58,167 bases of DNA, taken from the NCBI GenBank assembly GCA_024640985.1, contig JAHEDY010000013.1, positions 1 to 58,167 of the forward strand, given 5' to 3'. Under the pieces are notes generated by a model. It saw nothing but the letters and a program-made list of their open reading frames with translations. It was not told the DNA's origin and did not search any database. Source of the DNA: Gammaproteobacteria bacterium. GTDB taxonomy: Bacteria; Pseudomonadota; Gammaproteobacteria; Pseudomonadales; Litorivicinaceae. The first letter of the stretch is position 1. Every line of letters starts with the position of its first letter. The translations under genes were made by a program, and so were the position numbers. Shown here in pieces: positions 36,845-39,746 of this stretch.

Positions 36845-37719
36845 GCTGGTGGTCAATTTGGTTGCGCGGCCTGGCAATGGGTGCAGCTGATGCGGTACCC
36901 GGTGTCTCAGGCGGAACAGTGGCTTTTCTCACCGGTATTTATGAGCGATGGCTTGCCGTCTTAACATCGATCACACCAGCACTTTGGACGGTGTTTCGAC
37001 AACAGGGGCTAAAAGGCCTCTGGGTGCGACTCGATGGTGGCTTCGTTGTCCCTTTGGTGGTTGGCATATTGATGGCCTTAATCACCGTATCGCATTGGAT
37101 CAAAGACTGGTTGGATACGGTTCCCGAGCGCGTTTGGGGATTCTTTTTTGGACTGGTGATCGCCATGGGGATTGCGCTGTTGTCCGATCTTCGGGGCTCA
37201 ATGCGCGCTAAAGATTGGGCGTGGCTCAGCGTTGGGGTCGTCATTGCTCTGATTCTGGGTTTGCAAACGCCACAGTCCGCTGATCCTGAACTCTGGGTGT
37301 GGCCTTTCGCTGGAGCCATGGCTTTGTCAGCGATGCTATTACCTGGGATTTCAGGGAGTTTTCTGCTGCTGTTAACCGGGCTGTATCCGGCATTAATTGG
37401 TGCGGTGAGTGATTTTGATCTGACCATTTTGGCGTTGTTCATCAGCGGTGGTGCGGTTGGGATTTTATTGATGGCGCACGTTTTGAAAGCGTTGCTCGCG
37501 CGTTATCACACCGAGGTACTGAGTGCTTTAACCGGTGTGGTTTTTGGCGCTTTGGTCCGCGTCTGGCCTTGGCAAGGTGCTGCTGATGATGATGCCTTGC
37601 TGTTGATGGTCCCAGACAGTGAGATGTTTTGGATTCCATTTGGATTTGGGGTTTGTGGATACCTTTTGGCATCATTGGCATTGAAATTCTCAGCGCAGAA
37701 GGGGCCTTCCATTCGATGA
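36841..37719 (+). CDS. popT: DUF368 family undecaprenyl phosphate transporter
   Basis: A 292-residue polytopic membrane protein beginning WLRGLAMGAADAVPGVSGGT, the DUF368 signature, with a second inverted copy of the motif at AMLLPGISGSFLLLLTG. About eight to ten membrane segments are visible. DUF368 proteins (PopT) have been described as translocases that recycle undecaprenyl phosphate across the inner membrane. The start is GTG, coupled to pcm. It shares this operon-like run with uppS, which makes the same carrier. Confidence 0.85.
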   Translation: MSWWSIWLRGLAMGAADAVPGVSGGTVAFLTGIYERWLAVLTSITPALWTVFRQQGLKGLWVRLDGGFVVPLVVGILMALITVSHWIKDWLDTVPERVWGFFFGLVIAMGIALLSDLRGSMRAKDWAWLSVGVVIALILGLQTPQSADPELWVWPFAGAMALSAMLLPGISGSFLLLLTGLYPALIGAVSDFDLTILALFISGGAVGILLMAHVLKALLARYHTEVLSALTGVVFGALVRVWPWQGAADDDALLLMVPDSEMFWIPFGFGVCGYLLASLALKFSAQKGPSIR

Positions 37720-38549
37720 AACGACTCTGGATCTTGTGCATGCTCGCAGGTTGCTCAGCACCCTATGAAGTGCCGACCGATCACCTGGGTCGCCCGCTCG
37801 AGCGTGTTCAACCAAAAGTGACGACCATCGATGCTGGTAATCTCGATGCTGAAGAAGCTGGCTCAAGCTATGTGGTGCGACGTGGAGATACGTTGTTTTC
37901 CATTGCCTGGCGTTTTGAGCAAGATCCAGATCTTTTAAAACGACGCAATCAACTGCGCTCTGACCTGATTCAGCCGGGTCAATCATTAACGTTGAAAGGT
38001 GACATCCCCCCGGAGCCCGAACCTGAGGTTCAACCAACACCGAAACGACTGACACCTCCAGTGATTAAGGCCGAGCCAGAACCGCTTCAGAAGCCGAAGC
38101 CGAAGGAGGCACCGAAACCGGCTGTCAAGCAAAAGCCGAAGTCCCAAGTCAAGGCAACGCCAGTCCCGCAGTTGACCGGTTGGCAGTGGCCTGTCAGTGG
38201 ACCAGTCCTCGAGGCGTATTCTGACAAAACGCGATTCAGTCGCTCCCTCCAATTAGGCGGGCAGGTTGGGACGCCTGTCAAAGCCGCCGCGAGTGGTCGT
38301 GTGGTCTACGCTGGCGATGGTCTGGTCGGCTTCGGAAATTTGGTGATCATTAGTCACGAAGGCAAGTTATTGAGTGCTTATGGCCACAATCAGAGCTTGA
38401 GTGTGAAAGTTGGTGATGTGGTGACGATCGGTCAAGTGATCGCTAAGATGGGCTCAACTGGAACCGATCGTGTGAAGCTTCACTTTGAGATTCGAAAACA
38501 AGGCAAGCCGATTAATCCGGTATCACTGCTACCTAAGCGCAAGTCTTAG
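37716..38549 (+). CDS. nlpD: NlpD-type lipoprotein with LysM and degenerate LytM domain
   Basis: In E. coli NlpD activates the amidase AmiC at the septum. The 277-residue product starts MKRLWILCMLAGCS, with lipobox LAGC and lipidation at Cys13. A LysM domain follows (YVVRRGDTLFSIAWRFEQDP), then a Pro/Lys-rich linker, then a LytM/M23 domain. The zinc ligands look lost: the HxGxD position reads SLQLGGQ and the terminal HxH reads VKLHF, so it is an activator rather than an endopeptidase. The ATG at 37716 overlaps popT. Confidence 0.92.
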   Translation: MKRLWILCMLAGCSAPYEVPTDHLGRPLERVQPKVTTIDAGNLDAEEAGSSYVVRRGDTLFSIAWRFEQDPDLLKRRNQLRSDLIQPGQSLTLKGDIPPEPEPEVQPTPKRLTPPVIKAEPEPLQKPKPKEAPKPAVKQKPKSQVKATPVPQLTGWQWPVSGPVLEAYSDKTRFSRSLQLGGQVGTPVKAAASGRVVYAGDGLVGFGNLVIISHEGKLLSAYGHNQSLSVKVGDVVTIGQVIAKMGSTGTDRVKLHFEIRKQGKPINPVSLLPKRKS

Positions 38550-38617
38550 CCCTTCAGTCCATCACGCTCGACCCTGAGGCCCCGTTATAACTGAGCTCCC
38601 ACGACAAGGAGATCGTT

Positions 38618-39418
38618 ATGATTGATTCACTCTCGAATGCCAGTTATCTCAACCATTTGAATCAGCATGAGCTGATGACCGCTCAAGAAGAACTTGAGCT
38701 TGGTCGGCAAGTTCAACAAGGCTGTTTTCAAGCCCGTTCGGAATTTATTGAGCGGAACTTAAAGCTCGTCATTAGCATCGCAGGTCGTTATCGCGGTCGA
38801 GGACTTGATGTCGCTGATTTGGTGGAAGAGGGCAATCTTGGCCTGATGCGGGCTGTTGATAAATATGATCCAGAAATGGGCTATCGCTTTTCAACCTATG
38901 CCGCCTGGTGGATTCGTCAGGCGGTGGAGCGGGCCTTAATGAATCAGGCCAAAACCGTCCGAACCCCGATTCATAAGCAGCGAGAGATCCGACAAGAGCG
39001 GAAAGCGCGAGAGTTGGAAAATGAGTGCTTGCCAGGCTATGCCAAACGTAACCTCAATCATTGGTTCAACCCCGCTGAGCAAATCATTTCTTTGGATCAA
39101 CCCATTGAGAATCTGGACGGAGCCACTGGAGTCGATTTATTGGAGTCTGATGAGCCCTCGCCGGAGGCTTCGGTCGTCAGTCAACAAGACCGTGAAAACG
39201 TTGCCGCTTGGTTGAACCTGCTACCAGATCTCCCGAGGATGGTCTTGATGAGACGCTATGGACTCGATGGCCGTGATTGTGAAACCCTCTCTGCGATCGG
39301 TGAACGCCTAGGCACGACACGTGAGCGGGTTCGTCAGATTCAGGTTGAAGCCCTGCGACTGCTGCGCCGGATGGTCGAATCGGGACGCATTCCGGCTGAT
39401 GTTGCCATTCTGGATTAA
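38618..39418 (+). CDS. rpoS: RNA polymerase sigma factor RpoS, shortened form
   Basis: Stationary-phase sigma factor by synteny (nlpD before, fdxA-mutS after). The 266-residue protein has region 1.2/2 intact (NLKLVISIAGRYRGRGLDVA, EEGNLGLMRAVDKYDPEMGY, RFSTYAAWWIRQAVERALMN) and region 4 intact (GTTRERVRQIQVEALRLLRR). It is about 60 residues shorter than E. coli RpoS. Almost no sequence precedes region 1.2, and the region 3 helix-turn-helix is replaced by a shorter divergent stretch (about residues 125-155). GGAG precedes the ATG. Confidence 0.85.
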   Translation: MIDSLSNASYLNHLNQHELMTAQEELELGRQVQQGCFQARSEFIERNLKLVISIAGRYRGRGLDVADLVEEGNLGLMRAVDKYDPEMGYRFSTYAAWWIRQAVERALMNQAKTVRTPIHKQREIRQERKARELENECLPGYAKRNLNHWFNPAEQIISLDQPIENLDGATGVDLLESDEPSPEASVVSQQDRENVAAWLNLLPDLPRMVLMRRYGLDGRDCETLSAIGERLGTTRERVRQIQVEALRLLRRMVESGRIPADVAILD

Positions 39419-39419
39419 A

Positions 39420-39746
39420 TTAACCGCGATCGAGGTGGTCAATCTTATTGGCCACTCCGTCCCACTCGTCGGCATCGGGGAGTGGGTCTTTTTTCTCAGT
39501 AATATTCGGCCAGACACGCGATAGCTCGTCGTTGATTTCGATAAACGCCTTTTGATCTTCAGACAATTCATCCTCAGATAAGATCGCGCCTACCGGGCAC
39601 TCAGGCTCGCAGAGTGCACAGTCAATGCACTCATCAGGGTTGATCACAAGAAAGTTCGGGCCTTCATAAAAACAGTCCACTGGGCAGACTTCGACACAGT
39701 CTGTGTATTTACAACGGATACAGTTATCGACAACAACAAATGTCAT
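39420..39746 (-). CDS. fdxA: Ferredoxin FdxA (7Fe-8S type)
   Basis: Small electron carrier with a 3Fe-4S and a 4Fe-4S cluster. The 108-residue protein has the cysteine pattern [18 protein letters not shown] and then [12 protein letters not shown], with an acidic C-terminal tail as in Azotobacter FdI-like proteins. Its stop is one base from the convergent rpoS stop, without a terminator between them. It lies 27 bases downstream of mutS, so the two may be co-transcribed. A ferredoxin beside mutS is also seen in pseudomonads. Confidence 0.95.

Follow-up and report, generated by a model that had tools for sequence, protein, structure and literature searches.

At its rpoS locus, the window (the whole stretch of 58,167 nucleotides analysed here) encodes a protein of 266 residues that is probably an RpoS-derived sigma factor, predicted to be functional, reduced to regions 1.2, 2, 3.0, 3.2 and 4 and freed from the RssB/RssC-ClpXP route of destruction. 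The gene (38618..39418, + strand), assigned by its open reading frame and profile matches, runs from an ATG at 38618 to a TAA stop at 39416-39418, and is preceded in the sequence by a Shine-Dalgarno-like AAGGAG (38606..38611, + strand). AAGGAG stands in the same position in six of the eight genomes that carry a form of 266-267 residues, and in all eight the protein begins with MIDSL. Because there is an in-frame stop at 38588 and no ATG, GTG or TTG in frame between this stop and the ATG, no longer rpoS frame is possible in the window. The sequence-only reading of this DNA had described a short RpoS of 266 residues that starts almost at region 1.2, and the frame and the alignment agree with it: relative to E. 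coli RpoS, the protein is without about 52 N-terminal residues and without about 12 residues inside sigma-3. The longer protein for which that reading had allowed was not found in the window.

The locus itself is conserved. Upstream of the gene lie ispF-truD-pcm-DUF368-nlpD and downstream fdxA-mutS-cinA-aspS, so that the order pcm-nlpD-rpoS is that of E. coli. The conserved upstream neighbour is nlpD (open reading frame 37629..38549, + strand), and fdxA (39420..39746, - strand), identified from its open reading frame and synteny, is the conserved convergent neighbour. As listed, the nlpD frame begins with a TTG inside the preceding gene, and this part (window 37629-37719) contains stops in some relatives; the true start is probably the ATG at 37716, which overlaps the DUF368 stop and begins a sequence, MKRLWILCMLAGCS, that resembles a lipoprotein signal. 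Synteny was followed in the window and in 16 other fetched genomes of the genus, several of these loci being cut by contig ends.

Profile scores point the same way. Two RpoS models, NF004207 and TIGR02394, score best among 54 NCBIfam families (262.5 and 257.6 bits), but both scores fall below the curated RpoS cut-offs of 394 and 378.7; the next-best models are cyanobacterial RpoD/SigA (210 bits) and RpoD (189 bits). The protein is 43-48% identical to 32 full-length RpoS and 36% identical, over shared columns, to the RpoD of its own genome. That genome (1.63 Mb, 98.9% complete) has sigma region 2 at four sites: a 646-residue frame of RpoD size, the short RpoS, a 302-residue frame of RpoH size and a frame of 209 residues. 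The closest named relative is a 99% identical protein on QXYM01000084.1, from the metagenome-assembled genome of Litoricola sp. isolate NorthSea_HE361-13_B09. The window would accordingly come from a marine bacterium of Litoricola type. In viral contigs a pattern matched 15 stretches, and seven of these encode a relative; identity is 31-33% in the five longest, and no phage origin was seen among them. The window gene is thus best termed RpoS-derived rather than a standard RpoS, as it in all likelihood works like RpoS and lies at the rpoS locus, but scores below the RpoS cut-off and is without a recognisable sigma-3 domain.

Three Pfam models exceed their cut-offs in the protein, and mark region 1.2 (residues 9-35; 38642..38722, + strand; PF00140, 27.3 bits), region 2 for core binding and -10 recognition and melting (residues 43-112; 38744..38953, + strand; PF04542, 76.5 bits) and region 4 for -35 recognition (residues 198-250; 39209..39367, + strand; PF04545, 44.3 bits). 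Together with the locus neighbours, the matches to regions 2 and 4 uphold the original identification of the gene as rpoS by synteny. The alignment further shows that the sigma 3.2 linker or finger is kept (residues 158-190; 39089..39187, + strand). The core motifs of the -10 and -35 readers, RFSTYAAWWI.QAVER and T.ER.RQIQ, are invariant in the nine aligned short proteins and close to those of other RpoS. Sigma-1.1 is absent by Pfam and alignment, but a review describes this absence as a general trait of Group 2 sigma-70 factors, which it presents as close kin of the primary sigma factor that are non-essential (PMC4598750). The unusual N-terminal feature of the short RpoS is the loss of the RpoS tail and not the lack of sigma-1.1. 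As relatives such as G005 (98% complete) do without it, the short RpoS would likewise be non-essential.

It is in sigma-3 that the protein departs most visibly from RpoS. The alignment places a short unrelated stretch, NECLPGYAKRNLNHWFNP (residues 135-152; 39020..39073, + strand), where the sigma-3 helix-turn-helix should be, and PF04539, the model of sigma region 3, has no match in the window protein even at E<=1, whereas E. coli RpoS matches it at 80 bits. At E<=0.01 there was no PF04539 match at any rpoS locus of the genus, including the ten with the short gene. The same model found a sigma factor in 24 of 25 control genomes of the family, among them all 22 of the genus, and matches the RpoS of the sister genus (69.4 bits in G022, 76.6 bits in G023). 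The replacement of the helix-turn-helix by a shorter stretch, proposed from the sequence, is therefore confirmed. The same reading had also implied that the segment around E. coli K173 and the extended -10 contact were lost, and this is not supported. The K173-E174 dyad of E. coli corresponds to R122-E123 in the sigma 3.0 helix of the window protein (residues 118-136; 38969..39025, + strand; from the alignment and a model helix with block pLDDT of 49-64), upstream of the replaced stretch, and R-E is found in ten of ten short proteins. K173 has been reported to serve both promoter recognition (PMC3306417) and RssB recognition (PMC10705548).

Structure prediction is consistent with this architecture. 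An AlphaFold2 model from a 34-row alignment (mean pLDDT 70) has a single sigma-3 helix, at residues 118-136 (block means 49-64), and over residues 136-186 a chain with pLDDT below 50 and no sigma-3 bundle, low confidence not being proof of absence; these residues might still form a compact replacement fold visible only in the holoenzyme. Two points alone are taken from the model, the sigma 3.0 helix and the lack of any confident helix-turn-helix; an intact sigma-3 fold, which would have spoken against the sequence-only reading, does not appear in it. A single-sequence model was discarded (mean pLDDT 43). The best Foldseek match is 5ipl_F and the best sequence match 7vf9_F; the Foldseek superpositions are poor (TM-scores of about 0.4, rmsd of about 21) and say only that the protein is a sigma factor nearest to sigma-S.

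The short RpoS occurs in 10 of the 22 genomes of this Litoricola-type genus; of all 22, ten are at least 90% complete. Eight genomes (G000, G001, G002, G003, G009, G010, G013 and G015) carry the form of 266-267 residues and two (G007 and G020) a form of 250 residues. G004 has a broken copy, and in six genomes (G005, G008, G011, G012, G014 and G017) the locus is present without rpoS. In the remaining five (G006, G016, G018, G019 and G021), which are 56-72% complete, neither rpoS nor the fdxA neighbour that would place it was found. As the short frame is spread across the genus, it is no local error. Full-length RpoS is present in two of the three sister-genus genomes, and the third, 78% complete, gave no match. 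Of 370 genomes sampled across the class, 261 had a match; among the 147 matches listed, 146 have 11-16 extra residues relative to the profile of the short form (139 have exactly 13), and the window's own is the only one without extra sigma-3 residues. The rarity of the short form holds for these listed matches, and short forms are possible in other matching genomes. In the open-licence literature we found nothing on rpoS in Litoricola, nor, by title, on RpoS without sigma-3. For a cultured member, Litoricola marina, the literature gives a streamlined genome (2.2 Mb) and high abundance during a dinoflagellate bloom, and an isolate, L. marina HY2016, exists (PMC7992965).

Two other observations concern the sigma factors of these bacteria. 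G047 and G048, from other families of the order (96 and 99% complete), have no match at RpoS level, their best matches being frames of RpoD size (634 and 782 residues), and may also have lost rpoS. A third sigma type, probably FliA (frames of 237-313 residues with weak region 3 matches), is found in 17 genomes of the genus and is absent from G000, G002, G003, G010 and G018, of which G010 and G018 are incomplete; its presence does not track the state of rpoS.

The loss of the N-terminal tail is accompanied by the absence of full RssB and RssC. E. coli sigma-S without its first 50 residues has been reported to escape RssB-mediated turnover altogether (PMC7226468), and RssB and RssC have been proposed to be jointly required in Azotobacter and Pseudomonas (PMC12923157). 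An E. coli RssB query recovered mainly receiver domains in the genus, and we used a closer, Pseudomonas-type RssB (best match NF045505, below its cut-off) and sister-genus proteins instead, taking an output-domain match at E<=1e-15 as the criterion. By this measure the search for rssB suggested by the sequence-only reading found no full RssB in any of the 22 genomes of the genus, four of them giving matches to the receiver alone, in contrast to three of three sister-genus genomes with an output-domain match (also three of three with the sister genus' own protein). A strong full-length match was obtained in 9 of 13 genomes of other families, the query's own among them. With the sister-genus RssB as query, the genus gave one weak SpoIIE-type match (G009, E 1.2e-7, residues 92-284). 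RssC, searched with a sister-genus query, was likewise found in none of 22 genus genomes and in three of three sister-genus genomes; the matches to the RssC model in the sister genus (113 bits in G022, 100.6 bits in G023) lie below its cut-off of 250, and the gene adjoins the RssB-like gene. The RssB-like proteins of the sister genus (G022, L214 2428-3528; G023, L215 1096-2193) keep the SpoIIE phosphatase domain, while their receiver is not recognised by Pfam; in both genomes the RssC-like gene follows the RssB-like gene, and RpoS is full-length. With RssB-like and RssC-like genes in all three of its genomes, the sister genus thus resembles the RssB/RssC-ClpXP system reported for the Pseudomonadaceae (PMC12923157), from which the window genus differs in having neither a full RssB nor RssC in 22 genomes and an RpoS without the turnover tail.

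Since the N-terminal tail and both full RssB and RssC are missing, proteolytic control of the short RpoS is probably gone. The earlier expectation that this control should differ is therefore likely to be right in its outcome, but through the loss of the tail and of the adaptors and not through the K173 segment from which it had been derived. Absence of RssB alone does not force truncation of RpoS. Two genomes of other families, G028 and G037, have no full RssB match and a third, G032, a weak one (28%), and as all three have RpoS frames of 338-355 residues, the link is not strict.

The history of the gene can be followed on a tree built from 2942 columns of nine neighbouring proteins, with the sister genus as its root. 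G007 and G020 split from the other members of the genus with a bootstrap of 100, and as these two carry the 250-residue form, a short form goes back to the origin of the genus. The branching order of G003, G010 and G014 has low support (bootstrap 41-44). Five genomes without rpoS (G005, G008, G011, G012 and G017) fall into a single clade (100) that lies within the genomes with the short form, G014 stands apart from this clade, and G004, with the pseudogene, is sister to G009, which has an intact rpoS (100). Assuming that loss is irreversible, rpoS has been lost at least three times within the genus, by two deletions and one pseudogene. The empty nlpD-fdxA sites of G005, G008, G011, G012 and G014 measure 84-210 bp, and a search of these five for rpoS remnants gave only matches to the flanks and short chance matches. 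At the rpoS site of G017 (contig C24, L198 8917-15118), a 6.2 kb insert lies between nlpD and fdxA; it encodes a KAP-family P-loop NTPase (PF07693, 119 bits) and a GmrSD_C/HNH-type nuclease (PF07510, 50 bits), and may be a defence-type island.

These losses raise the question of whether the short gene is itself in decay, a barely functional remnant heading for deletion. The pseudogene of G004 and the loss from six loci would fit such a process, but the surviving copies do not behave accordingly, and we regard it as quite unlikely. In four unsaturated pairs (dS of about 1 or less), the dN/dS of rpoS is 0.033, 0.014, 0.020 and 0.013, each below the value for mutS in the same pair (0.071, 0.032, 0.039 and 0.034); saturated pairs and G001/G009 (dS 1.87, dN/dS 0.029) stand outside this comparison, and nlpD values based on fragments of only 12 or 31 codons were left aside. 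Ten genomes keep an open frame, and the short form dates back to the origin of the genus or earlier. The one broken copy has a different signature: in G004 rpoS has in-frame stops and, relative to G009, three 1-base indels and one 3-base insertion, with differences at codon positions 1/2/3 of 0.120/0.128/0.254, unlike the 0.071/0.049/0.485 of the intact genes of G009 and G001 (for mutS of G009 and G004, 0.064/0.024/0.228). The short rpoS is under strong purifying selection, which is not the pattern of a dying gene. It is well constrained but not exceptionally so, as dN/dS is lower still for fdxA in three of the four pairs and for pcm in both pairs measured; dN of the sigma 3.2 and sigma-3 stretch exceeds that of regions 2 and 4 in most, but not all, of the pairs examined. 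Constraint of this kind is also what would be seen if the protein had been repurposed, that is, if it had acquired a new promoter specificity and a regulon no longer directed at general stress. Compared with 78 RpoS of other bacteria, G000 has a median identity of 44% and G022 of the sister genus one of 70%, although the 78 loci were chosen by likeness to the window protein and the choice thus favours G000. The neighbouring genes give (G000/G022) 49/54 for mutS, 75.5/76.6 for fdxA, 46/44 for pcm, 38/39 for nlpD, 37.5/35 for truD and 45/50 for cinA, so that across these six the gap between genus and sister genus is only 0.4 to 5.1 points. This suggests that rpoS in particular went through a burst of change on the branch leading to the genus, followed by constraint, which would fit a rebuilt protein. 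At 114 columns in which at least 95% of 32 full-length RpoS share one residue, the window protein deviates at 28, a further point in favour of altered targets. The readers of the -10 and -35 elements, however, have changed little, their core motifs being invariant among the short proteins and close to those of other RpoS, and repurposing therefore seems to us unlikely.

The origin of the gene is a separate matter. Under a mixture model the genus proteins fall inside RpoS. The tree in which genus and sister genus are forced together scores best, 4.2 log units above the free search and with p-AU 0.63; a union with RpoD, at p-AU 0.27, is not rejected. A simpler model with RpoH as outgroup places the genus protein outside RpoS plus RpoD, but this tree has long branches and is not trusted. 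Given the unrejected RpoD grouping and the placement under the simpler model, the gene tree is no proof, and descent from rpoS is argued chiefly from the locus and the profile scores. The unrejected grouping with RpoD and the low score against RpoS models would both be expected if a different, already short sigma factor from elsewhere had taken over the rpoS locus. Such a displacement is nevertheless very unlikely, since the RpoS models, at 262 and 258 bits, are well ahead of the next model at 210, synteny is unbroken and the best tree joins the sister genus; moreover, among the 147 class matches listed only that of the window has a short sigma-3, and no donor is seen there. An artefact of assembly or annotation is scarcely credible. 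At least G002 is a metagenome assembly and many of the genomes are in tens to hundreds of contigs, but ten genomes agree, one of them (G001) on a contig of 1.44 Mb, and the window has no in-frame start upstream.

We therefore favour a functional short RpoS, a compact sigma factor into which the genus' own rpoS would have been reshaped before the genus diversified. It would bind core RNA polymerase through regions 2 and 4 to form a holoenzyme, and would read -10 and -35 elements much as RpoS does, with R122-E123 probably still able to reach the extended -10. Having lost two of its three sigma-3 helices, it would hold the DNA just upstream of the -10 less firmly and would therefore depend more strongly on the -10 and -35 elements. 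Because the tail used in ClpXP turnover and the RssB/RssC adaptor are missing, the short RpoS would also escape the usual route of destruction, and its level would be set by transcription and translation. In a lineage of small genomes, the general stress response may then have become cheap to lose, leading to the three or more independent losses of rpoS.

Compared with known systems, the short RpoS shares with RpoS (sigma-S, sigma-38) of E. coli and Pseudomonas aeruginosa its locus, regions 1.2, 2, 3.0, 3.2 and 4, its best profile match and the K/R-E dyad at the extended -10 contact, but differs in having neither the tail of about 52 residues nor the sigma-3 helix-turn-helix, in a genus in which no full RssB or RssC was found. 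ECF (Group 4) sigma factors consist of regions 2 and 4 only and are without a sigma-3 domain. The short RpoS resembles them in its missing sigma-3 domain and small size, but unlike them retains region 1.2 as well as the 3.0 helix and 3.2 finger, and it scores 262 bits with RpoS, 189 with RpoD and 117.5 with an ECF model, these models differing in length. In E. coli, rpoS is given up under nutrient limitation (the SPANC balance). Repeated surrender of RpoS is common to both cases, but in the window genus the losses lie between species, proceeded by pseudogenisation and deletion, and came after an earlier remodelling.

A broader and more tentative proposal, which we consider possible, is that the genus harbours a proteolysis-free RpoS, intermediate in architecture between the Group 2 and the ECF sigma factors. 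The loss of RssB/RssC may have removed the need for the tail and for sigma-3, the protein may have been rebuilt quickly, and it may now serve a different, smaller regulon through control of synthesis alone. The genus and its sister would then preserve a path from full RpoS to a short form, a shorter form, a pseudogene and finally a clean deletion. As selection has kept a version of RpoS without the sigma-3 helix-turn-helix and without the tail, the short RpoS would provide a natural test of what these two parts of RpoS are for.
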